A stretch of 64,000 nt of DNA from Erysipelotrichales bacterium (GTDB lineage Bacteria > Bacillota_I > Bacilli_A > Erysipelotrichales > Erysipelotrichaceae). The position numbers and the translations under genes are program-made. Below the pieces are notes generated by a model. The model did no database searches. It had not been told where the DNA came from and saw only the letters and a program-made list of their open reading frames with translations. Shown here in pieces: positions 2,736-21,524 of this stretch (the first letter of the stretch is position 1; every line of letters begins with the position of its first letter). The stretch is taken from NCBI GenBank assembly GCA_910576345.1, contig CAJTIT010000009.1, positions 1 to 64,000 on the forward strand. The letters run 5' to 3'.

Positions 2736-4436
2736 CTAATTACATCGTATACATACGTAAGTAGGTAGTGAAGCCTCAGAAATGGAGTTTTCTGAGGCTT
2801 CAGCTTTTTTTAGCGTTTCTAAAGCCCCCGTAACGCCCTTTGCTACCATAAAGCTCCATTTATGCGGCAGCATCTTCAAATAAACTTCTATGTGGTTTTT
2901 ATCGTTGATTACCATTTTGTCGAGTATCTGGGTATAGTATTCGTCCTCGTACTGGATACCGTTAATCAGCTCGTCAATGGCGTTTTTTATATCCGCCATC
3001 AATTCCTGCTGTTTGAGTATCATTGTCTGTTGTTGCTCAATTCCCTCCACCATAGACTTTAGCTTTTCAATATACTCGTCATACTTGGCTCTTAGGGCAG
3101 TAAACTCGGTTTTGTCTATGTCGCCGCTTGTGTAAAGGTCTATAAGACCTGTACGCTTTTTCTTGGCTTCTTCGATTTTCTCCGATAAGGCACTCGTGCT
3201 TGTTCCTGTTAAGTCTATCCGCATAACAGCGTCAATCGTCTTGGTGAGATTATCGACAACTTTCTGGCGGTTGATTTTCAGTTCCCTGCAAACAAGGTAC
3301 AATAAATAAATCGCATCCTCATTGCGGATACTCTCGCCAGAACAGCCCACTTGATTACCCGCCTTGTCGATGTGCGGTCTGCCGTGGTTTGCCGCTTCAT
3401 AGCAACGCCACGCCTTGTATCTGCTTCCGTCTTTGCGGGTCTTATATCGGGCGACATAGCTTGCTCCGCATCTGCCGCATTTGATTTTCCCAGAGAACGG
3501 ATAGCGGTTGCTGTGTTTTGCCTTACCCTCCTGCGAAAGTGATTTTGCATCCAGAATGCGGTTTGCCTTATCGAAAAGATCACGGGAGATAATCGGCTCG
3601 TGGTGGTCTTTGAGAATGACAAATTCCTCTTGTCCTCGGTTGTATTTCTTTTCGTGAGACAGGAAGTCTGGCGTATAGGTTTTCTTCTGTACTAAATCGC
3701 CGCAGTATTTTTCGTTGCGGATAACACGGAGAATAACCGTATTCTGCCATTCTTTGACACGCATAGGCTCGATGCCTTTCTCCCGAAGCTCACGGGCGAT
3801 AACATGAGTACCTTTTCCTTCGTCCACAAACTTGTGGAAAATAAGGCGGACAATTTTCGCTCCCTCCTCATTGATAGTCATTTTCCCGTCCTTTACATCG
3901 TCGCCGAGCATACTGCGTCCGAACACAACGCCTTGCTCCATCTGGCGTTTCTGCCCCCATTTCACACGCTCGGAAGTCTTGCGGCTTTCCTCCTGTGCTA
4001 TAGAGGACATAATGGCAAGGCGAAGCTCCGCATCGCCGTCCAAGGTGTTGATGTTGTCGTTCAGAAAGATAACGCCGACACCGTGCTTTTTGAGGTCACG
4101 GGTATAGAATATACTATCAAGGGTATTTCTTGCAAAACGGGAAATCTCCTTTGTAATAATCAAATCAAAATCGCCGTTTTTTGCACACTCAATCATGCGG
4201 TTAAATTCTTTTCGCTTTTTCGTGTTCGTTCCAGAAATGCCCTCATCGGCAAATATGGCATAAAGCTCCCAATCGGGATTACGCTCAATATACTGGCGGA
4301 AATATCGCTGTTGGCTTTCAAAAGAATTGGCTTGGTCTTCATTGTCCGTGGAAACACGGCAATAGGCGGCAACTTTCTTTTTCGTTTCCTGCATTTTTCT
4401 CTCTTGGTTTAAGAGTTCGTATTGTAATGTTGGCAT
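2736..4436 (-). CDS. Large serine recombinase (TnpX/TndX-like)
   Basis: Site-specific recombinase likely to excise and integrate island 1. Residues 20-160 form the resolvase catalytic domain, with the nucleophile serine in the A-Y-C-R-V-S-T motif. A recombinase DNA-binding domain follows, then a zinc ribbon (C-G-R-C-G), then a coiled coil. The 566 residues suit the family. AAAGGAGAGG four bases before the ATG supports the start. The last codons lie at the extreme left edge of the island, so the C terminus may overlap the attachment site. The frame is intact. Confidence 0.93.
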   Translation of the reverse strand: MPTLQYELLNQERKMQETKKKVAAYCRVSTDNEDQANSFESQQRYFRQYIERNPDWELYAIFADEGISGTNTKKRKEFNRMIECAKNGDFDLIITKEISRFARNTLDSIFYTRDLKKHGVGVIFLNDNINTLDGDAELRLAIMSSIAQEESRKTSERVKWGQKRQMEQGVVFGRSMLGDDVKDGKMTINEEGAKIVRLIFHKFVDEGKGTHVIARELREKGIEPMRVKEWQNTVILRVIRNEKYCGDLVQKKTYTPDFLSHEKKYNRGQEEFVILKDHHEPIISRDLFDKANRILDAKSLSQEGKAKHSNRYPFSGKIKCGRCGASYVARYKTRKDGSRYKAWRCYEAANHGRPHIDKAGNQVGCSGESIRNEDAIYLLYLVCRELKINRQKVVDNLTKTIDAVMRIDLTGTSTSALSEKIEEAKKKRTGLIDLYTSGDIDKTEFTALRAKYDEYIEKLKSMVEGIEQQQTMILKQQELMADIKNAIDELINGIQYEDEYYTQILDKMVINDKNHIEVYLKMLPHKWSFMVAKGVTGALETLKKAEASENSISEASLPTYVCIRCN

Positions 4437-4553
4437 AAAACCTCTCCTTTCCCGACAATGACTTGCCGTAGTTTAAGTATAATGAATGCTTGCTTGTGTG
4501 TCGAATGTGCAAATTTTGAAATCGCACATTTCTATATGTTAAGAGCCAAGCGG

Positions 4554-4754
4554 TTAGGCTTGGCTGCGGTTTTTCTGACTGTATTGCTTTTCTATTTCCT
4601 CGATACAGCGGCTATATTGCGAATGGGTCAAAAGCTCCCGTTTTTCCAAAGAAGCAAGTATTGACTTTTGAAGATGCAGATAAAACGCTGTGCATTCCTG
4701 TTCAGTAATTTGCGGAGCAGGCTCTCCGACATAGATAAACTCACGACATTTCAA
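4554..4754 (-). CDS. Small conserved element protein next to the recombinase
   Basis: A 66-residue protein with a helical, SHOCT-like C-terminal half (L-E-K-R-E-L-L-T...). Small genes of this type are common immediately upstream of large serine recombinases in gut Firmicutes elements. It begins three bases after the stop of the 53-residue gene upstream, so the two are likely cotranscribed and translationally coupled. No function is assigned; a directionality factor is possible but not shown by the sequence. Confidence 0.65.
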   Translation of the reverse strand: MKCREFIYVGEPAPQITEQECTAFYLHLQKSILASLEKRELLTHSQYSRCIEEIEKQYSQKNRSQA

Positions 4755-4757
4755 TCA

Positions 4758-4919
4758 TCAACACCACCTCGCTATACTGTATTCACAAGGGGTTGTACAG
4801 TATAACAAGAGTGTTCGTCCTTTTTGAAAAGCCGATTTAATATCTTGTTTGCAGCCAATAACGGTATTTAATACAGAGAAATATATATCGCTGTATTTTA
4901 GCTTTAAAGTCCTTTCCAT
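4758..4919 (-). CDS. Small cysteine-containing element protein
   Basis: A 53-codon frame beginning M-E-R-T-L-K-L-K and ending A-R-W-C. It has four cysteines and a GGAGAAAG ribosome site just before the ATG. It is followed three bases later by the 66-residue gene, giving an apparent three-gene run into the recombinase. The family is not recognised. The tight spacing, ribosome site and lack of any competing frame support it as real. Confidence 0.5.
   Translation of the reverse strand: MERTLKLKYSDIYFSVLNTVIGCKQDIKSAFQKGRTLLLYCTTPCEYSIARWC
4773..4804. repeat. 9-bp inverted repeat in the small gene
   Basis: TATACTGTA (4773-4781) and TACAGTATA (4796-4804) are perfect complements 14 bases apart. 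They lie within the 3' part of the 53-residue gene, just before the next ribosome site. The repeat could be an operator or hairpin controlling the recombinase-side genes, or chance. Confidence 0.35.
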
Positions 4920-5434
4920 TTGTCTTTCTCCTATCTGAATTTAAGCAGTGTTTTTACTGCTTATGTAGAAGCCGGATATAAGGGAATAAAGCATAAAATA
5001 GAACTCGTTTCCATAGATCCGCTTTACATCTGGCTTAATATGATAGGAGTATTTTTATTTGTACACACTAATGAAGTTAGTGGTGCACTTACGAAAAATT
5101 CATCAAACGGCTGGCAGCGTACCAGCTCCACGGGAATCTCACCCTCACATGGTTCTCATGCGACCGCCCCCATTGCCTGCGACGGCTTCACGACTGAAAT
5201 ATCGCTTTTCACGCTCGGACTGTGGCTGGACGGGAGTATCATTGTCCCTATTGCCTGTCGTCGCCATATCGGGAGCCGCCCGATACTGATAGCCAACTGT
5301 ATCTCGCTCCTTGCCGGATAATTGGTTCGGCATATCGTGGCGCAGCTGCTAATGTGGCTCATGCTTTCGCAATAGCAATAGGAATATGGTATTCAGTTGT
5401 CAAAGAGCGTAATCGTTCACCGTAAAACGGATAA
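4920..5434. other. No supported gene
   Basis: Several overlapping frames on both strands can be read here, but none has a ribosome site, a recognisable family or a plausible neighbour. A short hairpin, GCAGT...ACTGC, lies at 4944-4959. The stretch sits between the sigma-like gene terminator and the small recombinase-side genes and may hold the promoter of the latter. Confidence 0.4.
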
Positions 5435-5461
5435 AGGGCAGAGAAAATTTATCTCTGCCCT
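5435..5461 (-). terminator. Terminator after the sigma-like gene
   Basis: AGGGCAGAGA pairs with TCTCTGCCCT around a 7-base loop, 30 bases after the sigma-like stop codon. The T tract on the minus strand is short (TTTATCC), so termination may be partial and allow readthrough toward the recombinase genes. Confidence 0.6.
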
Positions 5462-5490
5462 CATCCTCACTCAAAGGGATTTTTTCAACC

Positions 5491-5964
5491 CTATTTGGAA
5501 AGAATTTTTCTTATTTTTTCTATCGCCGCAGAAATCGAACTTACAACAGCCGAAGAGGAACATCCCTCTATTTCTGCAATTCGCTTATAGGTCAATCCTT
5601 GGAAATAGTACAGTTTCAACCGCTTTTGCTGCGTTTCGGTCAGCATTGCAATCGCCTGATGTAATTCTTCATATTCGATGCCGCGCAGAACAACTTCCTC
5701 AATCGATTCATTTTTGACACAAGCGTGCCTGTTCAGTGATTGCTCCGTTTGCTCAAAGTGTTCAATATGCCTGTCCCACTCGTTAAGAATCGAGAGATCG
5801 TCCAATTCAAAGCGGTTAAGCATATCAAATAAGTCCTTTTGTATTTCCATCTCATGTCGCACGCCTTGTCCGTCTTTGAACGACAGATAATATCTGCCGT
5901 CATTCTCGCAAATGGTGTACGGGTTGTACTTGTCTTTTCTTCTTTTCGGATGATACCCGATCAT
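5491..5964 (-). CDS. Sigma-70-like regulator of the island
   Basis: A 157-residue protein. The N-terminal half is not recognised. The C-terminal 60 residues form a sigma region-4 helix-turn-helix (T-E-T-Q-Q-K-R-L-K-L-Y-Y then L-T-Y-K-R-I-A-E-I-E-G-C-S), the layout of Tn916 Orf7-type regulators of element transfer or excision. Region 2 is absent, so it is not a full sigma factor by itself. Its ribosome site lies inside a 21-bp stem (5973-6024). A related gene stands in island 2 at 54,804-55,229 behind a similar leader. Confidence 0.8.
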   Translation of the reverse strand: MIGYHPKRRKDKYNPYTICENDGRYYLSFKDGQGVRHEMEIQKDLFDMLNRFELDDLSILNEWDRHIEHFEQTEQSLNRHACVKNESIEEVVLRGIEYEELHQAIAMLTETQQKRLKLYYFQGLTYKRIAEIEGCSSSAVVSSISAAIEKIRKILSK

Positions 5965-5972
5965 TGTTTTTT

Positions 5973-6024
5973 CCTCCGATCAATCTGAATTTTGAAAATC
6001 GAAAAAATTCAGATTGATCGGAGG
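5973..6024 (-). promoter_or_regulatory. 21-bp palindrome covering the ribosome site of the sigma-like gene
   Basis: Arms 5973-5993 and 6004-6024 are perfect complements around a 10-base loop. In the minus transcript the 3' arm ends in GGAGG, the ribosome site eight bases before the ATG at 5964. As RNA the stem would bury the site completely; as DNA it could be an operator. There is no T tract on the transcript side, so it is not a terminator. Confidence 0.7.
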
Positions 6025-6054
6025 AGAACGACAACCTGGGGCAAACACAAAAAC

Positions 6055-6090
6055 GCACTTGAATAACGACAAAAGCCGCTTTACAAGTGC
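6055..6090 (-). terminator. Attenuator-like hairpin in the sigma leader
   Basis: GCACTTG and CAAGTGC close a 22-base loop. On the minus strand the stem is followed by GTTTTTGTGTTT. It lies about 90 bases before the sigma-like start, so it would stop transcription before the gene. Island 2 has a hairpin with T tract in the equivalent place (55,394-55,427). Confidence 0.5.
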
Positions 6091-6260
6091 ATTTAATTCA
6101 TTATTTTTATGGCATAACAGTTCATTGCATAAGCCGCAGTACCCCTGTGTAGGGCATATGCTTTTTTTTAATTGACTACCCGCAAGGATAATATCTATAT
6201 CATAGATTCATATTCGCTGCTTATGACAAGCAGCGAAACGCTGAAAGAAGTCCAGCACAT

Positions 6261-6352
6261 AAAAAATCTCTCCAATCCAAAAACTCGGATTTGGAGGGAT
6301 GAGCGCATAAGGAAACTGCCCTGACAAACCTCGTTTTTTTATTTGGCAGGGC
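6261..6352 (-). ncRNA. Structured leader element, copy 1
   Basis: Two hairpins lie upstream of the sigma-like gene on its strand. Hairpin A pairs 6318-6323 with 6347-6352 and has an AAATAAAAAAACG loop on the minus strand. Hairpin B pairs 6270-6278 with 6287-6296 and is followed by a T6 run and ATGT, like a terminator. Island 2 has the same two-hairpin arrangement at 55,601-55,704, with the same loop and T-run sequences but compensating stem changes. No coding frame fits the segment in both copies. Confidence 0.55.
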
Positions 6353-6468
6353 TGACACCTGTTATTTAGTTCATAGATTTGCGAACTGTCATTCCACTTA
6401 TAATTGAATTGTCGTGCATTATAAACATGGCTCAAATCAGTATAGTTATATATGGAGGTGGACTGTAA

Positions 6469-6567
6469 GTGCATAACGAAACTGAAAAGCTCGGTTGTAT
6501 CATTAAGGCTTTCACAGTCGTCAAGGCAACTGCTAAAGCCTTAATTGATACCGCACCCGAAAAGTAG
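6469..6567 (+). CDS. Possible 32-residue peptide
   Basis: A GTG start 8 bases after GGAGGTGG reads V-H-N-E-T-E-K-L-G and ends D-T-A-P-E-K. It is followed directly by a small terminator hairpin (AGCC GCAA GGCT then TTTTT) that the IS has split. The ribosome site plus terminator suggest a real short transcript unit. The peptide belongs to no family that can be named here. An overlapping ATG frame (M-E-V-D-C-K-C...) is a less likely alternative. Confidence 0.4.
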   Translation: MHNETEKLGCIIKAFTVVKATAKALIDTAPEK

Positions 6568-6576
6568 CCGCAAGGC
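6567..6576. repeat. IS target-site duplication, left
   Basis: GCCGCAAGGC, identical to 8190-8199. Without the IS the two copies collapse into the stem and GCAA loop of a terminator that would end the 32-residue peptide transcript. Confidence 0.85.
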
Positions 6577-8189
6577 CAATGTCATTAAGATAAAAAGATA
6601 TAAATAAAAGAAGGTAAATCAAAATAAGAATTACCTTCTATTCATTAGGTGAAAGCATTATGAAAACTGTAGTTCAAAACTACAAGAATTTATATTATAA
6701 TAGACATGTTAATCGAATCGATAGTTAAAACAAACAACACCTTTTGGTTTAAGAGGTCGAGTATTACTTCTATTTGGTCGTATAGGTAATATCTCTTTAG
6801 CTATCAGCGATTCAACATTGAGCGGTACTCCGCTCTTTTTTCTTAGAAACGCTCTTATTATATGGAAAGCTCGCGTAAAATTAACTTGATATAGATATCT
6901 TGTACTCTTTTTCTTGATCTTAATCTTTTGAATGATGCGTTGAGAGAAATTATAGAGAAGGATACGGGCGTATATTTCCTGCTTGATCAACTCTCGTTTT
7001 TTACTGTGTAAAGCGCTCAATCCTATGGCATATTTTAATTCTCTAAATGAAGTTTCAATACCCCATCGTTTATGATAGAGTTCCTTGATTTCCTCCATTG
7101 TAAATTCATTTCTGTCAAGATTGGTAATAATACATTCATAAGTATCGTCTGTAATTTTAAACCTTACAATTCTTGTATGAAATTCATAAGGTATATCTTT
7201 GTTTTCGTCAAAGTAATCAAAACGCTGATTCCTAGGCATGTATTTATAAATTTCAGGATGTTTTTTTATTTCATTTGTACATTTTCTTGTAAACAGACGA
7301 GAGACATCAATATCAAATTCATTATTAGGTAATGAACCAAAACTTTTCATAATACTCGTTTTTGAATGTATATCTTTTACACGAATCAAATATTTATTTT
7401 CAGAGTGACTTACATGTTCAACTCCATTGAAGGATTCGTAACCTCTATCCGCAATAAATATAGCTTTATTTCCTTTATATTGATCTACAAGTTGAACAAA
7501 AGCACCGTTTTCATCGAAATTAGCTTGACCTTGAATAACTAAATCATCATAAGTACATTCTAATAAATCATAGGAAGCATTAAGATGAAAAGCTGAAAAA
7601 GTTTTGTCTGAATTATTGATTTTTTGTAGAGTTTTCTTCATCCGCAAATGAATTGTCAATAGGAAGTACTGTACCATCAATCGCTAATAAACGATACCCT
7701 TTCAATGTTTTAGTGACAAGAGATTTTTGATTAAAAGTATCAAAAATAGTTTTGAAAGCATCATGTTTGATTTTACTTCTGGCTTGGACAAAAGCAGAAG
7801 AAGTAGGAGTGAAAGAAGAATAATCATTTAATTTCAATAATTCATCTTTCAATGATCCGGCTTCCATGCATATAACATTTTTAATAACAGTTTCAAAAGA
7901 AAGCTTTCTGTTTCTGGTGAAATCAGATTTAGGATTCACAGAGAAAAGCGATGGTGAATTTGGAACAACAGAAATCACATGATTTAAAATATTACGTAAA
8001 TGTTTAGACTTGTTCATAGATAATACCTCCAAAAATCTATATCTATAAACAATTGGCTAATTATTCATTTAGCAGTAATGAATAATTAGCCACACACCTT
8101 TTAATATATGTCAAGAAAAATATAAAAAAAGAAGGGCCAATTTTTCTTTGACTCCTTCTGTGTCATTTTACCTTAACTTAATGACATTG
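6577..8189 (-). mobile_element. IS4-family insertion sequence, complete copy
   Basis: A 1,613-bp element. Its ends begin CAATGTCATTAAG and are inverted repeats of each other for at least 13 bases, continuing with one mismatch. It is flanked by 10-bp direct repeats GCCGCAAGGC, which fits IS4-family target duplication. It contains one transposase reading region on the minus strand, split by a one-base shift in an A6 tract. Confidence 0.9.
6709..8017 (-). pseudogene. IS4-family DDE transposase, frame-shifted
   Basis: The upstream part runs from the ATG at 8017 (GGAGGT ribosome site) through the first catalytic aspartate motif L-L-A-I-D-G-T. It then hits a stop just after an A6 run (7620-7625 on the plus strand). 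The downstream part continues in another frame from K-I-N-N-S-D through the second motif F-I-A-D-R-G-Y and the Y...R...E motif (H-K-R-W-G-I-E-T-S-F-R-E-L-K). Removing one A restores a single 435-residue frame. Either the gene is dead or slippage on the A run makes the full enzyme. Confidence 0.85.
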
Positions 8190-8199
8190 GCCGCAAGGC
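8190..8199. repeat. IS target-site duplication, right
   Basis: GCCGCAAGGC, identical to 6567-6576. It is followed by TGCTTTTTCTTT, the T tract of the interrupted terminator. Confidence 0.85.
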
Positions 8200-8230
8200 T
8201 GCTTTTTCTTTATATAAAAGCAGCGATATT

Positions 8231-8608
8231 TTAATTTTCACTGCGGATGTGTTCCTGAATAAATGATAGAAGTTCCTTTTTAGAAAATCCTAATTCTGTC
8301 ATTGCGCTTATAAAACTATGGCAAATAAGCTCCATTTCTTGAATGCGTTTCTTTTGAATGAGAGTGCTATTTAATGTGACACAATAATTTCTTTTCCCTT
8401 GTGTAAAAATCAAATTATCATGCTTTATCAATCGATATGATCTTGCAACGGTATTGACATTCAGGTGCAGCATATCAGCCATACTGCGAATGGATGGAAT
8501 ACTCTCTCCGGGTAGTAACCTACCGCCGAGAATGCTGTATCGGAGTTTATGAGCTAATTGTATGTAAATTGGAGATTTTTCATCGAAAGTCCATGCTGTG
8601 TAATTCAT
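8231..8608 (-). CDS. GntR-family (YtrA-type) regulator
   Basis: A 125-residue protein with an N-terminal winged helix-turn-helix (P-I-Y-I-Q-L-A then L-P-G-E-S-I-P-S-I-R-S-M-A) and a short helical C terminus lacking a ligand domain. This is typical of YtrA-type repressors that govern ABC transporter operons. It is the last gene of the peptide-resistance operon, 25 bases after the receiver protein, so it may control that operon. Confidence 0.85.
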   Translation of the reverse strand: MNYTAWTFDEKSPIYIQLAHKLRYSILGGRLLPGESIPSIRSMADMLHLNVNTVARSYRLIKHDNLIFTQGKRNYCVTLNSTLIQKKRIQEMELICHSFISAMTELGFSKKELLSFIQEHIRSEN

Positions 8609-8633
8609 TTTTTACTCTCTTAAACCATGTCTT

Positions 8634-8975
8634 TTATATCAACGCTCTGATTTTATCAAGAAACTGACAATCCGCTTTTTCACAAAAGGTTATACCGTAC
8701 AACCCGGCTTTGATTGAGAGATTATTGCTGCCATCAGATGACATAAGCATAAATGGAACAGAAATATTCCTTTCCCTGCAAGAATGCAGCAAATCTAAGC
8801 CTGTTCCGTCCCGCATATTATAATCAGAACAAATCAAGTCAACAGAATCTTTTTTCAGTTTTTCCAATGCGTCCTTAACGCCGAATGATTTCAAAACTTC
8901 AAATTCTTTGCTCAACAATTCCGATAAAGCATATCTGAATGTTTCATCGTCATCTACAAGTAAAATTCTTTTCAA
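8634..8975 (-). CDS. Stand-alone response-regulator receiver
   Basis: A 113-residue CheY-like receiver with no output domain. The acidic pair is at D8-D10, the phosphorylated aspartate is in C-S-D-Y-N-M (about D51), and the switch serine and conserved lysine (F-C-E-K) are in place. It starts at TTG. It sits between a small membrane protein and the GntR gene in the transporter operon. It could be a phosphate sink or partner of the island kinase at 14,927-16,318; that link is inferred only from proximity. Confidence 0.8.
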   Translation of the reverse strand: MKRILLVDDDETFRYALSELLSKEFEVLKSFGVKDALEKLKKDSVDLICSDYNMRDGTGLDLLHSCRERNISVPFMLMSSDGSNNLSIKAGLYGITFCEKADCQFLDKIRALI

Positions 8976-8999
8976 AATAACGCCTTACTTTCTACCGAA

Positions 9000-9173
9000 T
9001 CACAGATTTTCGTATTTATCGCACCGGCGAATCACCCAATCTATGATTTTATAAATACAATAAATAAGAATTATCAAAATGCCTGTGGGTATCAGTAATA
9101 TCCCTATACAGATACCGCCGATACCCATTACGGCATATACTACAAGTTTTTTGTGCCTCTCAGTTTTCCGCAT
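9000..9173 (-). CDS. Small membrane protein of the peptide-resistance operon
   Basis: 57 residues: a basic N terminus (M-R-K-T-E-R-H-K-K), one or two hydrophobic segments rich in I, L and G (residues 10-45), then a charged tail. It overlaps the end of the lipoprotein gene by 14 bases and precedes the receiver gene by 24. The family is unknown. Its size and place suggest an accessory or immunity peptide of the transporter. Confidence 0.6.
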   Translation of the reverse strand: MRKTERHKKLVVYAVMGIGGICIGILLIPTGILIILIYCIYKIIDWVIRRCDKYENL

Positions 9174-9660
9174 CTTTGACTATCAGTTCGAGGCTTCCGC
9201 TGAAATGATCGCCTTTCAGAACGATGTAATTATCACCGGACGAAATGGTGTATTCTTTCGTATCTTCCGAACTGATATTTGCAATCGAATACTCATCGCT
9301 GCCGGCAATCCAGTTTAACTCAGCAGTTCCATCTTCTATGGTAAGTTTGTAGGTTACCTGCAGGTGATTGCCGTTTTCACGGTTCAAAGCCGTTCCGCCG
9401 AAAATGAACTCTTTTCCGTTAAATCCGTCATAAGCAGCCGTATAGGTACCTGTATAAGCGTCAACGCCTTCGTCTTTCTCGCCCTGCAAATCCTTTTCTT
9501 TTGTCAGTGCGTGTTTGCTGAAGGACTACATCCATCTGTTCCAACCGTCAATCAGGTTATCTTTCAAGCTGCCTTTATTGTGGTCAGAGCCGCACCCCAA
9601 AAAGCAACCGACGATACTCAAAACCAAAAGAACAGAGATGATTGCTTTTATCTTTTTCAT
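9160..9660 (-). pseudogene. Lipoprotein of the peptide-resistance operon, amber mutant
   Basis: From the ATG at 9660 the frame gives a lipoprotein signal peptide (hydrophobic core, cysteines at 19 and 23) and 44 residues to W-M, then a TAG at 9526-9528. The same frame continues without break for 121 more residues of a soluble beta-rich domain (Y-T-G-T-Y-T-A-A-Y...). One nonsense change therefore splits an otherwise intact gene of about 166 codons. It likely encoded a LanI-like immunity lipoprotein, judged from position. Translation of the second half alone would lack a signal peptide. Confidence 0.75.
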
Positions 9661-16664: not shown

Positions 16665-17605
16665 CTACCTTTCCATGCTCTTTTGCCGTTCACGCTTGCG
16701 GTATAGCTCCAAAGCCTTAATAATGGTATCTTCAATCTTCTGCGCGAGCGTCCCCGGCGCAAAATATTTGCTGATACGCTCTTTCGGCATTTTGAACTGT
16801 TCTTTCTGATTTGGCTTTTCCTCTTGCATAATGGAGAGAATCACCTCGTCGGTCAGTTTGCCGTCCTTGCTAAACTCTTTCATTTTGATCGCCTGCGCCA
16901 AAGACGGGGTGCAATCCTCACATTCCATTGTGCTGTATAGGGATTCCTGCTGCTCTTTGGAGAATAGGAGATCTCGACGGCAGGACGGAAAGCAATCTTC
17001 CCGTCGTCCACCATTTGCAGAACAGGCGGGATAAGCTCGGTTAAGCGGATAAAGCGTTGAATTTGCCTTGCACTATCGGGAGAATCTTTTGCTAATTGTT
17101 CGTCAGATCGTGTCCCGATTAAATTTGTGTCCAGTGGGCGCGAATTTTCCTTGCTCGGTCTGCCTGCTTGCCTTTTCATAGCATCCAGCTTCATTTTATA
17201 GGCAAATGCTTTTTCGGACGGTAAGATCATTTCCCTTTGTAAGTTACTGTCTACCGTGATAATGGTAGCTTCATCGTCCGTGAGATTGCGGACAATGCAG
17301 GGAAGCTCCATCAGTTCAGCCAGAGCCGCCGCAAACTTTCGCCTGTGGCCAGCCACCATTTCATAGCCGCCGTCCTCTTTCGGTCGGACAAGTGCCAGAA
17401 CTAACACGCCATATTTCCGCACGCTATCCACCATTTCAGCCATTGCCTCGTCCTGTTTGACCTTGAACGGGTGGTTCGGAAAGTCGGAGATTTCGGCGGG
17501 ATTCAGTATTACGACCTTTTCAAGCTGTGATTCCGCGCGGCTTTCGTCGGTGGAGAACAGGTCATCTAACGGCGTCATTCCTAAATCTCTCGTTTTTGCG
17601 TTCAA
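16665..17605 (-). pseudogene. ParB-like partition protein, frame-shifted
   Basis: The first 220 residues carry the ParB core, with the nuclease-like loop (M-V-A-G-H-R-R-K) and helix-turn-helix (S-D-E-Q-L-A-K-D). The frame shifts near 16,958-16,970 and ends in a meaningless tail. The true C terminus continues in another frame from S-K-E-Q-Q-E-S-L to K-S-M-E-R at 16,665. Inserting one base restores about 313 residues. The start is probably TTG at 17605, after AAAGGAAG. Confidence 0.8.
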
Positions 17606-17752: not shown

Positions 17753-17768
17753 CACAAATATATAAATA

Positions 17769-17957
17769 TTACACAGCAGGGATTGCACAATAGATGTTGA
17801 TTTCACGCTGAGAGCCTTGTCCGATAACAGCAGGTTGCTCGGCGTATGTATAGCGGTTGTTTTTTCCGTACTTTGTAGGCTTGTCCTCCGTTGTAAATTC
17901 ACCCATCCAAAAGCCCATAAATAGCGACTGTTCGGACGATTTTGGGAAATGGAGCAT
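17769..17957 (-). CDS. Small conserved element protein, copy A
   Basis: 62 residues from the ATG at 17957. The C-terminal pattern R-E-I-N-I-Y-C-A-I resembles W-I-N-L-Y-A-V in the small gene at 21,277-21,489. The DNA before and over the start, CCTACxTTxTGCTCAGAAATG, is nearly the same in both. No ribosome site is seen, so the start is uncertain. Followed by its own terminator. Function unknown. Confidence 0.5.
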   Translation of the reverse strand: MLHFPKSSEQSLFMGFWMGEFTTEDKPTKYGKNNRYTYAEQPAVIGQGSQREINIYCAIPAV

Positions 17958-18008
17958 TTCTGAGCATAAGGTAGGTCGAGGTTACGGAAATGGCTCACTT
18001 CACAATTC

Positions 18009-19585
18009 CTATTGGATTATTTTTTCTTGAGCAAATGTTTTTAGCAAATCAGAACTTGGATGGTCAGCTAAAGATACCAATTTATTAGCCATTACAACAG
18101 GAACAAGTGAATTATAATATAAGTCACATTTTAAAGCTGTAATATTATATAAAATCTCATTGATATTAATATAGTCGCTTATTTGGGGTTCAACCATTGC
18201 TTGAACATTTGGTATTGTTGCGACATACACATTGTTGTGCTCAGATTTAAAGATAACCTTATGCCCATAATATGATGAAATGGCATATGGCTCGCTATCC
18301 CTTCCGTTTCCAGGAATAATATACTTGTAAATATAACTATTTCCAAGTAGTAGCATCTGCTTTGGCAACATTTTTTTAGATGCCTGCACTGCATGTTCAA
18401 CAAAAGAACCGCTTTTTTCAAGTCCAACCAGATAAATTGAATGGTTTTGATTTAAGAAAGTCATCAGCTTTCGCATAGGTTTATGAAGATTGGCGGTTTG
18501 ACCGAAAAAAGCAAGGGGGCCATCCTTTACAAACAAGGTCTGGGATAATAAACTCGGTCTTATATTTAGCATTTGCTTAATAAGATATACGATGATTATT
18601 TGTTCAACCGCAGACGTTAAATATCCAAGAATACCTCCTGCACCAAGTTCATTATCAATGACCTCATGAAGTCTTAAAATATCTGTAAGATATATTTTAT
18701 CACCGCAATGAGGGCAAGTTATAGTGTAGTCATTTTGAACATTCTTTTTCTGTATATCAACGCCTACACTACAATGGGGACAAGTTGCTAAATGCCAAAT
18801 CTTACTGTTATCAGAAGAACTATATTCTTCAAATATGAGCCATTTTAATGCATCTATAAAACCGTTTCTTTCTGGCTGGGAAATAAAGAACTCATATATA
18901 GTTCTTCTGACCGATGATACAAAGTCAATCTCACCATCAAGAGCGATTCCCTTCGTTGGGACTACGAGCTTTATTCTTTGAATATTTTGATTATCAGTTA
19001 AAAATCCTTTTTCACTTATGACATGTTCTGAAGGTCTTTTCCCAGAATTGAATTTTCCCGACTTAAGTAGCTTTTTCATACTTTTACTATAAGGTCGCAA
19101 CACCCTACGATTATCTGCTTTAGGATAGTCCGAATTAGATATCCACCATTCATGTGTAAAGCTGTCAATCGCTCTTATTCTATGAATTGTTACCCATTGA
19201 GCAGGTGACGGCAATCTGGCAGGATTATAACAAATAAATTCTTGACACAACCTTAGTCCCGCCTTTTCATTATTTACAAAACTAAGAAGGCTATTTAAAT
19301 GAAGTAGAGACTGAACAGGACGATTTTTCTCCCACGCATTTCCCATTTCAATTACTATTGAACCGTTTGGAGCTAATACACTTGAAAACAATTCCGCTAA
19401 TCCCGTAAACCATTTTAAATATTCTTCCCCGTTAAGATTTCCATATTGTTTTTTGTTATTTAAAGGAAAAGGGGGGAAGTAAGTATCAATTGTACTTTCT
19501 TCTGTAAATCTAATTCTCTAATGGTTTCTTCACATTTTCCTATATAGTATTTTCCGAGTTCTGTGCTGTATAATAAATCACTCAT
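18009..19585 (-). pseudogene. DNA methyltransferase N-half fused to a NurA-like domain, frame-shifted
   Basis: From the ATG at 19585 the frame gives a beta-class DNA methyltransferase (L-Y-S-T-E-L-G-K-Y-Y-I-G) up to the catalytic T-S-P-P-F motif. There a C6 run (plus-strand G6 at 19471-19476) is one base short, and the frame ends at once. With seven C the frame reads on for 525 residues in all: methylase signature E-M-G-N-A-W, P-A-R-L-P-S-P-A-Q-W, then after about residue 195 an unrelated part. That part has two D-G motifs (I-A-L-D-G and V-K-D-G-P-L) and two CxxC pairs, resembling a NurA-type nuclease. The usual methylase D-P-F-x-G-x-G motif is missing. The NurA assignment is tentative. Confidence 0.7.
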
Positions 19586-20492
19586 TTTCTTTTACCACTT
19601 TCCAATTACATTCTATCGAGTGCCATTGTTTTTGCCACTCATCTTCATTCACAATTGCATCAAATACAGGCTCAAGGAATTTCTGTATTTCCTCAATGAC
19701 CACCGAAAACTCAAGCGTATCATCCTTTATGGTTCTCAAAAAGAATTTCCACCGCTTTTGCATATCCACATCCTCGGCAAGTGTTAGAATACGCTTGAAG
19801 CTTTCCTTTTCGTAGGGCGTCCCTCGCCGTTCCAGTGTTCTGGATATTGCCGTCTGTAATCTCGCTCCGTCAAAATCAAAAGTCCTCGCTAAATAGTAAA
19901 TATCGTAAAAGTCCTTCATTCTGCTTATTAGTTCAAACCGTTGCAAAATAGCATCAAATTTCTCGGCAATGGTGCTTTCAAGAGAATAGGTCATAATAAC
20001 AGGAGCTTCAAAATCGGGAAGCTGTGTATGGATAGTCCGCTGCTCGGCACGGGGGACAATCACATCGCCCACGCCAATATCCACATTAAAGGGAACACGG
20101 ACATTTTTTATCTTTCCGATAATCTGTGTGCTGATGCCGTGATATTTCCTTTGCGGTGAGATTTCTTCAAATCCTTTCGCAGTCATCTCAATATAATCAT
20201 TGCCCGTAGGCGTAGCAAGGATTTTTAGGATAAGGGCTTTTACTTCATCCAACGAATTGGAAACGCTGCGAAGCAGAAAATCCACATCAATCGTTGCTCG
20301 GCTTTCAAAATTTGTGAGCGTATAGATAAACAATCCGCCCTTAAGAATAAGCGTATCATCATATCCAGACTTTGAGAGCTTCCGTAAAAACTCCTCCTGC
20401 ATAAAAAGCTGTAGGCACTGCTGATAGCTGATACCAGCCGCCTTTGCTTTATTCTTAAGCTTTGCCAAAACAGATGCTGCTACATCAGCCAT
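19578..20492 (-). CDS. abiEii: AbiEii nucleotidyltransferase toxin
   Basis: 304 residues of the AbiEii/AbiGii nucleotidyltransferase family (type IV toxin-antitoxin, abortive infection). The active-site motifs L-I-L-K-G-G and T-I-D-V-D-F-L, then I-A-E-K-F-D and R-M-K-D-F-Y-D-I, are all present, so it is probably active. The ATG shares one base with the AbiEi stop, and its own stop overlaps the methyltransferase start by 8 bases. The three genes form one operon. Confidence 0.93.
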   Translation of the reverse strand: MADVAASVLAKLKNKAKAAGISYQQCLQLFMQEEFLRKLSKSGYDDTLILKGGLFIYTLTNFESRATIDVDFLLRSVSNSLDEVKALILKILATPTGNDYIEMTAKGFEEISPQRKYHGISTQIIGKIKNVRVPFNVDIGVGDVIVPRAEQRTIHTQLPDFEAPVIMTYSLESTIAEKFDAILQRFELISRMKDFYDIYYLARTFDFDGARLQTAISRTLERRGTPYEKESFKRILTLAEDVDMQKRWKFFLRTIKDDTLEFSVVIEEIQKFLEPVFDAIVNEDEWQKQWHSIECNWKVVKENE

Positions 20493-21100
20493 CACAACCA
20501 CACTCCAATCAATTCTTTTACACGCTTTTGCATACGCAATATCTTTGCATACTCCATAAGGTTCGGTATATTTTTTTTCGGGTCTTTTACATACCCTTGT
20601 ATTGCCTTATTAAAAATCTCCTTATCCATTTTGTTCATATTCCGCAGTACATCGCAAATGGTACGGTCACGGTCATAGATACGGACATCGACAAAATTGA
20701 TACTGCCTTTTGTTTCGCCAAGGGATACCAAAACTGGCTCAACACGATATGCCTTTACAAAGGGGTAGTCGATATTTGTACGGCTTCTGGATACATTTTT
20801 ATCAATCGTAATATTCCACTCGGCAGGGTTGCGGTCGCTGTACTGATAGTAAAAGAGGGCAGTTTCCATGCAAAGCACCGCATCGGGAAATAGGCGATTT
20901 ATAATTTTAACTTCCTGTTCGCCATAGATTTCCGTCCAATGATAATAGCCCCGTTTGATTTTTTCAATGAAGCCCTCGTTTAATAGTTGCTGAATATCCG
21001 CATAGTAGATTCTATTGGAATCCAATTGAGCTGTCGTCATTATATAATCATGTTTAGAAAAAATCTTCCTAACAGCGTTTATCGATTTTTCATCAAGCAT
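20492..21100 (-). CDS. abiEi: AbiEi antitoxin / autorepressor
   Basis: 202 residues with an N-terminal winged helix (residues 10-65: Y-I-M-T-T-A-Q-L-D, then I-E-K-I-K-R-G-Y-Y-H-W) and the AbiEi antitoxin domain behind it. GAGGTGA stands five bases before the ATG at 21100; an upstream in-frame ATG lacks a site. Family members counter AbiEii and repress their own promoter by binding inverted repeats, which are visible upstream. Confidence 0.92.
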   Translation of the reverse strand: MLDEKSINAVRKIFSKHDYIMTTAQLDSNRIYYADIQQLLNEGFIEKIKRGYYHWTEIYGEQEVKIINRLFPDAVLCMETALFYYQYSDRNPAEWNITIDKNVSRSRTNIDYPFVKAYRVEPVLVSLGETKGSINFVDVRIYDRDRTICDVLRNMNKMDKEIFNKAIQGYVKDPKKNIPNLMEYAKILRMQKRVKELIGVWL

Positions 21101-21142
21101 TGTCTCACCTCTACTAAAACACACGCAAATTCCTCGTCGCTT

Positions 21143-21200
21143 GTGTACTTTACTATAGCATACTCGATTTTTCTCAAAAAGTCAACTTAGTAAAGCACAC
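21143..21200 (-). promoter_or_regulatory. AbiE promoter inside an inverted-repeat operator
   Basis: On the minus strand TTGACT (21180-21185) and TATGCT (21157-21162) are 17 bases apart, a good sigma-A promoter. It lies between the inverted repeats GTGTACTTTACTA (21143-21155) and TAGTAAAGCACAC (21188-21200), which match in 12 of 13 positions. This is the layout expected for AbiEi autorepression. Confidence 0.8.
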
Positions 21201-21238
21201 GAGATTGAAACTATCAATGGTGTAGTTTAGTACAAGAA

Positions 21239-21272
21239 ATGAGCTTGTCCAACTTCTTTCAGACAAGCTCAT
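21239..21272 (-). terminator. Hairpin after the small gene at 21.3 kb
   Basis: ATGAGCTTGTC and GACAAGCTCAT form a perfect 11-bp stem just after the stop at 21,277. The T tract (TTCTT) is weak. Confidence 0.6.
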
Positions 21273-21276
21273 GTTC

Positions 21277-21489
21277 TCACGCTTCATAATTATAATAGAC
21301 ATCTGCATCCGCTACCGCATAGAGATTTATCCATATCGGAGTGCCGCCAAGCTCGATAAAATAAGGCTTTCTGCCACCTTTCCTGTATCTTTCTTCATCC
21401 CACTTGCCGATTCTTTCATAGCTTACAAAGCTATGTACAGATAAGCCGAAGGCACTGGGCTTGTCCGTATAGGGCTTGATTTGGAACAT
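21277..21489 (-). CDS. Small conserved element protein, copy B
   Basis: 70 residues from the ATG at 21489 (M-F-Q-I-K-P-Y-T-D...F-V-S-Y-E-R-I-G-K-W). Homologous at the start and end to the 17.8-kb small gene. The frame is open upstream through the host terminator, so the native N terminus may have been cut away at the island edge. No ribosome site is seen. Function unknown; it is the last feature before the host transporter operon. Confidence 0.5.
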   Translation of the reverse strand: MFQIKPYTDKPSAFGLSVHSFVSYERIGKWDEERYRKGGRKPYFIELGGTPIWINLYAVADADVYYNYEA

Positions 21490-21524
21490 TTCTGAGCACA
21501 ATGTAGGAACATCATGCACATATC

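Follow-up and report, generated by a model that had tools for sequence, protein, structure and literature searches.

The question raised by this locus is whether a gene that seems to join a DNA methyltransferase (MTase) to a NurA-like nuclease, directly behind an AbiE pair, belongs to a larger composite defence system or represents what is left of one. The locus lies in a stretch of 64,000 nucleotides from an Erysipelotrichales bacterium (the window), where the initial annotation had correctly placed it at positions 18009-21200. We propose, with a probability of about 0.72, that the window carries a composite defence operon that was acquired horizontally and has recently collapsed, the intact form of which is seen in locus L009 of an uncultured Clostridia bacterium, and in which AbiE is likely the only part still functional.

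AbiE is a type IV toxin-antitoxin family in which AbiEi binds inverted repeats to autoregulate its own promoter and neutralizes the toxic AbiEii. The pair and its promoter in the window are as follows:

20492-21124, minus strand: abiEi, antitoxin and autorepressor; ATG at 21100, alternative GTG at 21124; intact ORF
19578-20501, minus strand: abiEii, nucleotidyltransferase toxin; ATG at 20492, alternative GTG at 20501; intact ORF
21140-21203, minus strand: promoter upstream of abiEi, sigma-70-like; -35 TTGACT at 21185, -10 TATGCT ending at 21157

AbiEii matches PF08843 (E 1.2e-45), and the L009 orthologues of AbiEi and AbiEii match the PADLOC models for these proteins (2.4e-67 and 7e-91); an AbiEii nucleotidyltransferase domain and an AbiEi partner are hence present in one operon, as is expected of a member of this family. 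Both frames are open and overlap by 1 nt when read from their ATG starts, and abiEii in turn overlaps the ATG of the MTase fragment by 8 nt, just as first described. The single promoter that had been assumed for the three genes was located within an inverted repeat, the 16-nt arms of which (21140-21155 and 21188-21203, 88% complementary) enclose it. This repeat recurs in L010 and in L007, a locus from an uncultured Lachnospiraceae, and is likely to be the AbiEi operator; the placement of the promoter within it fits the autoregulation known for the family, which we infer to operate here too. Given dN/dS values of 0.03 for abiEi (against L007 and L010) and 0.05-0.07 for abiEii (against L010 and L007), both genes are under purifying selection, and within the window copy it is probably AbiE alone that is predicted to remain functional.

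The third gene had been described as a single ORF of 525 codons. Instead, it resolves into the following pieces:

19460-19585, minus strand: 5' fragment of a PvuII-type m4C MTase; 41 codons, then a stop; overlaps abiEii and matches the intact N-terminus in L007 and L009
19471-19476, minus strand: C6 tract at which the MTase frame breaks; net -1 in L010 too
18988-19470, minus strand: remainder of the MTase N-terminal half, in another frame; SAM-binding C-terminal half absent
18988-18990, minus strand: deletion junction with a 3-bp TCA microhomology; 2,745 bp absent relative to L007, in frame
18009-18989, minus strand: C-terminal 326 codons of NurA; zinc-ribbon cysteines and DGPL motif kept, first 138 residues with the motif-I aspartate gone

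Reading from the ATG at 19585 meets the stop after 41 codons, homology is picked up again beyond the C6 tract in a different frame, and the ORF at 18009-19391 lacks a proper start of its own. The fused frame is free of stops for about 490 codons, the break falling at codon ~38. Within the 460-aa ORF, the similarity is to methyltransferases over residues 1-134 and to NurA over residues 135-460; the MTase piece is 59% identical to an Aurantiacibacter MTase and 95% identical to residues 37-201 of the L009 enzyme, and the NurA piece shares 51% identity with an annotated NurA across 325 residues. Thus, the junction of an MTase half with a NurA-like domain, as originally noted, is genuine by homology on both sides, but neither half can be expected to yield a working product: the TSPPF motif of the MTase is broken by the frameshift and its SAM-binding half deleted, and of the two acidic motifs of NurA (DG[GS] motif I and DGPL) only DGPL is retained, D89 of motif I, invariant in 18 relatives, having been lost. 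No relative spanning both parts was recovered from the plasmid and phage collections. A sequencing error is a less likely source of the frameshift, as L010 has a net -1 at the same tract.

When species genomes were scanned, L009 and L007 were recovered, in both of which abiEi, abiEii and the genes for a 326-aa MTase, a HerA ATPase (DUF87) and a 464-aa NurA form a tight row. The genes of L009 are as follows:

3078-3755: abiEi
3746-4669: abiEii
4662-5642: MTase
5639-7639: HerA
7644-8981: NurA

All five are open and either overlap or lie at most 5 bp apart; L007 has the same order, with one stop codon in HerA near residue 77. Against L007, the window aligns in two blocks (93% and 98% identity) that join at 18988-18990, equivalent to L007 5255-5257 and 8000-8002, with TCA at both sides. 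The missing 2,745 bp amount to exactly 915 codons, so the first ~200 codons of the MTase were joined to the last 326 of NurA, at the cost of the SAM-binding half of the MTase, the whole of HerA and the part of NurA that includes D89. Judged by this alignment, the window locus is an abiEi-abiEii-MTase-HerA-NurA locus minus 2,745 bp, and the suggestion of collapsed remains, offered initially as the alternative to a larger system, is borne out by the intact row in L009 and the near-intact one in L007. Neither HerA nor a second close copy of the MTase was found in the genome to which the window belongs, and a Pfam NurA search of that genome was empty because motif I, the part that the model recognizes best, was deleted.

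Residues 5-316 of the L009 MTase align with M.PvuII (1boo) at E 5e-68; being a full-length homologue, it is predicted to be an m4C enzyme of the PvuII kind. Eight of the 18 members of the NurA family match PF09376 (best 2.2e-21). A fold search with an AlphaFold model built from 9 sequences (pLDDT 74, pTM 0.79; a 5-sequence model with pLDDT 45 was set aside) returned TdpB of TdpAB as the best match (E 2.3e-9), followed by the NurA structures 9x1n, 3tai, 7f6d and 2ygk (Thermococcus, Pyrococcus, Deinococcus, Sulfolobus). The resemblance to NurA noted at the outset, for which a fold comparison had been suggested, is therefore upheld by the identity to an annotated NurA, the Pfam matches and the fold. 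When the PDB was searched by sequence with a NurA profile, only chance zinc-finger matches came up, and PADLOC-DB 2.0 contains no model that recognizes the nuclease. The closest solved relative of HerA by sequence is TdpA (E 7e-19); hence, in the intact relatives, HerA and NurA are adjacent and nearest to TdpA and TdpB, respectively, as would be expected of a Tdp-like effector.

Relatives were gathered by sequence and their neighbours read, which gave 23 loci with undeleted HerA-NurA (L001-L003, L007-L009, L016, L017, L024, L025, L060, L063-L068, L071-L076), although an insertion sequence interrupts HerA in L003 and the above-mentioned stop does so in L007, and the contigs of L074 and L076 end inside or before NurA. 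They come from Bacillota, prophages, a Vibrio phage, Deferribacter, an archaeal plasmid and cyanobacterial plasmids. A DNA methyltransferase directly adjoins HerA-NurA in 19 of the 23, where we estimate that a random gene would stand beside one about 1 time in 100 or less; the four loci without an adjacent MTase are L001 and L002 (cyanobacterial plasmids), L072 (viral, with a D12 gene ~2 kb off) and L074 (contig end). These MTases belong to four unrelated clusters (the PvuII type, two D12 clusters and an N4/N6 type), and the NurA tree implies six or more switches from one class to another. A marking enzyme that is swapped while the effector is kept is what the logic of restriction-modification predicts, and the intact system is probably restriction-modification-like with an exchangeable methylase, the restriction activity being suggested by gene association. 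The Deferribacter MTase is of a different type from that of the window. Among L016, L017, L071, L073, L075, L076 and L024 are viral contigs that carry a D12 MTase with HerA-NurA, some beside phage genes, and a Vibrio phage in which HerA-NurA is accompanied by a convergent MTase; these loci look like phage-borne defence cargo. No match was obtained when viruses were scanned with only the NurA of the Vibrio phage as query.

Several observations bear on the age and origin of the window copy. Relative to L007, the MTase piece shows 5 silent differences and 1 changing one, and the NurA piece 12 and 1. A long-dead gene is expected to show several-fold more changing than silent differences; therefore, on these counts, the collapse is recent. 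The dS against L007 is 0.33-0.40 for abiEi and abiEii but 0.05-0.06 for the MTase and NurA pieces, and because of this difference the two modules have separate histories, that of abiE being recombined. The same locus is wrecked in L010 too, where a bigger gap spans the window's junction. The C-tract reads C6T4 in the window, C7T3 in L010 (at about 7915) and CTC6T3 in L007, and the NurA pieces of the window and L010 differ by 12 silent and 0 changing substitutions despite their common net -1 at the MTase C-tract; this combination could reflect either repeated slippage of the tract (phase variation) or recombination of old and new pieces. The unit that appears to have moved is the following:

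17755-21513, no strand assigned: mobile unit; block common to L010 and (17951-21501) to L007, in different chromosomal surroundings

A search of the remaining 315 genomes of the order and of a further 391 from the phylum gave no copy of the NurA nuclease, and this block sits in unrelated surroundings; the window copy therefore arrived horizontally, most likely from Clostridia. The edges of the block (window 21487-21513 and 17947-17990; L007 2743; L010 5914) bear a similar short sequence, TGCTCAGAAATG, in the tails of related genes. L007, L009 and L012 adjoin a gene that by eye resembles manganese catalase, which suggests a common insertion site. Beside the element, at 16665-17605 of the window, is a ParB-like gene that seems to be broken into a pair of overlapping frames and may be what is left of an integrative element. 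Elsewhere in the genome there is another and older remnant of this NurA, with 54% identity and four stops (G000:C7:8625-8837; L006 ~1500-1745), so that such a system has probably been gained and lost there more than once. An independent collapse is seen in L062 (6207-7979, genome G1009), where 205 aa of the MTase and 375 aa of HerA remain, followed by a complete NurA. HerA is broken in every decayed locus in which this could be judged (L007, L003, the window, L010 and L062), and no truncated MTase was seen beside a whole HerA-NurA, although the number of loci is small.

Taking these findings together, we propose that in the intact system the MTase would mark host DNA at its own site, and that HerA-NurA would load on DNA, translocate and degrade it unless the mark stalls the complex, by extension from TdpAB. 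AbiE would repress its own promoter and serve as an addiction module or abortive-infection backup, roles that are established for AbiE. In the window, the in-frame deletion removed HerA, half of the MTase and the catalytic N-terminus of NurA, and the frameshift silences the leftover fusion. The order of the genes, the deletion, the break in the frame, the homologies and folds and the recurrence are observed, and the biochemical action is predicted. More broadly, we would give an even chance to the proposal that MTase, HerA and NurA constitute an unrecognized restriction-modification-like family, in which a translocating nuclease of the TdpAB type is served by interchangeable MTases (m4C PvuII, two D12 clusters and N4/N6) and is carried by chromosomes as well as by plasmids and phages. 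In gut Clostridia it would stand under an AbiE pair, which may protect the cell against loss or blockage of the system.

The AbiE pair lies upstream of a PvuII-type MTase in L007, L009, L010, L012 and the window, and in no other HerA-NurA locus read. The recurrent order abiEi-abiEii-methylase-NurA, which had been put forward as a check, is found in L009 and L007, with HerA between the last two genes, but AbiE is not a constant member, most HerA-NurA relatives having an MTase without it; it is best read as an addition made in a single branch from gut Clostridia. As the linkage is confined to a few related loci, AbiE may even be a passenger. An ordinary AbiE that came by chance to lie beside an MTase system, with no functional tie, would agree with its being common and usually found alone (AbiEii relatives occur in 632 plasmid records, where AbiE is common without such an MTase) and with L008, where MTase-HerA-NurA lacks AbiE; we nevertheless consider this somewhat unlikely, for the 8-nt overlap of abiEii and MTase is identical in L007, L009 and the window, and L012, a different locus, has abiEi-abiEii directly before the same MTase type. 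There (7743-9221), the row continues at the contig end into a PRTase-CE protein (PF24390, E 2.9e-15); with PRTase-CE in the place of HerA, abiE and the MTase may form a cassette that is combined with one effector or another.

Two further explanations concern the enzymes themselves. The idea that the fused ORF encodes a functional MTase-NurA protein through programmed frameshifting or re-initiation draws on the in-frame deletion, the long stop-free frame and the nearly all-silent differences of the kept pieces from L007. Constraint acting before a recent collapse would equally account for the last of these, and with the frame broken so early, an MTase without its SAM-binding half, a NurA without its first catalytic aspartate, and L010 having shed even more of the same genes, a fusion found in no other genome is very improbable as an enzyme; we accordingly rejected a bifunctional protein. 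A serious rival for function is furnished by ICEth1 of Thermus thermophilus, where an operon with the NurA-like nuclease, the HerA-type TdtA and an N4/N6 methylase serves DNA transfer, NurA and TdtA being required for DNA donation (PMC5365140). By this precedent, MTase-HerA-NurA would serve mobile elements in processing or transferring DNA and would not be a restriction system, and several HerA-NurA loci are indeed on plasmids and phages. We deem it unlikely, as other loci are in prophage regions by integrase or repressor genes or in chromosomes with no transfer machinery in the stretch read, four unrelated MTase clusters have been swapped in, and the nearest solved relatives of both subunits, TdpA and TdpB, are from an antiphage system.

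If the restriction-modification-like reading is true, a HerA-NurA effector of the TdpAB type would not be bound to phosphorothioation and could read ordinary base methylation, restriction-modification would gain a class of translocating nucleases, and the "DNA repair nuclease NurA" annotations in prophages and on plasmids would be accounted for. The window wreck, in which AbiE is kept and the restriction part lost, shows cleanly how the decay of a composite defence locus can leave only the toxin-antitoxin core. The open-access literature searched offered no description of MTase-HerA-NurA as a defence system, and the intact relatives in other gut bacteria and phages suggest one that is little described. 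DndFGH/HerA "capture" systems and new HerA-centred systems related to BREX have been described (PMC10853773, PMC12839542), and the Dnd paper makes no mention of NurA.

Among known systems, AbiE shares the abiEi-abiEii order, the overlap, the autoregulatory-looking promoter and the nucleotidyltransferase toxin, but normally comprises two genes, whereas the intact relatives continue into MTase-HerA-NurA. Type II restriction-modification of the PvuII kind shares the M.PvuII-like MTase; however, the row holds no PvuII-like endonuclease and has HerA-NurA in its place. The HerA-NurA end-resection complex of archaea and Deinococcus has the same two folds but is encoded by repair genes, the archaeal ones lying by mre11-rad50, in contrast to the zinc ribbon and MTase neighbour of the present loci. 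The ICEth1 operon (Tth111II, NurA-like, TdtA, N4/N6 methylase) likewise unites NurA, a HerA-family ATPase and a PF01555 methylase, but the description is of a machinery for DNA donation that includes a type IIG enzyme; it is not known to restrict DNA, differs in gene order and has no AbiE (PMC5365140).

The closest parallel is TdpABC of Thermus, the phosphorothioation-based antiphage system of thermophiles in which TdpAB degrades DNA that lacks phosphorothioate. Like the intact relatives, TdpABC (PDB 8wet, 8wfd) combines a HerA-type ATPase (TdpA), a NurA-fold nuclease (TdpB) and a DNA-marking enzyme; unlike it, the present system would mark DNA by base methylation through a PvuII-like m4C enzyme rather than by TdpC phosphorothioation, and has AbiE added in this branch. 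With a DNA methyltransferase as the marking enzyme found, HerA-NurA-MTase may thus be said, by analogy, to work like Tdp rather than to be Tdp.
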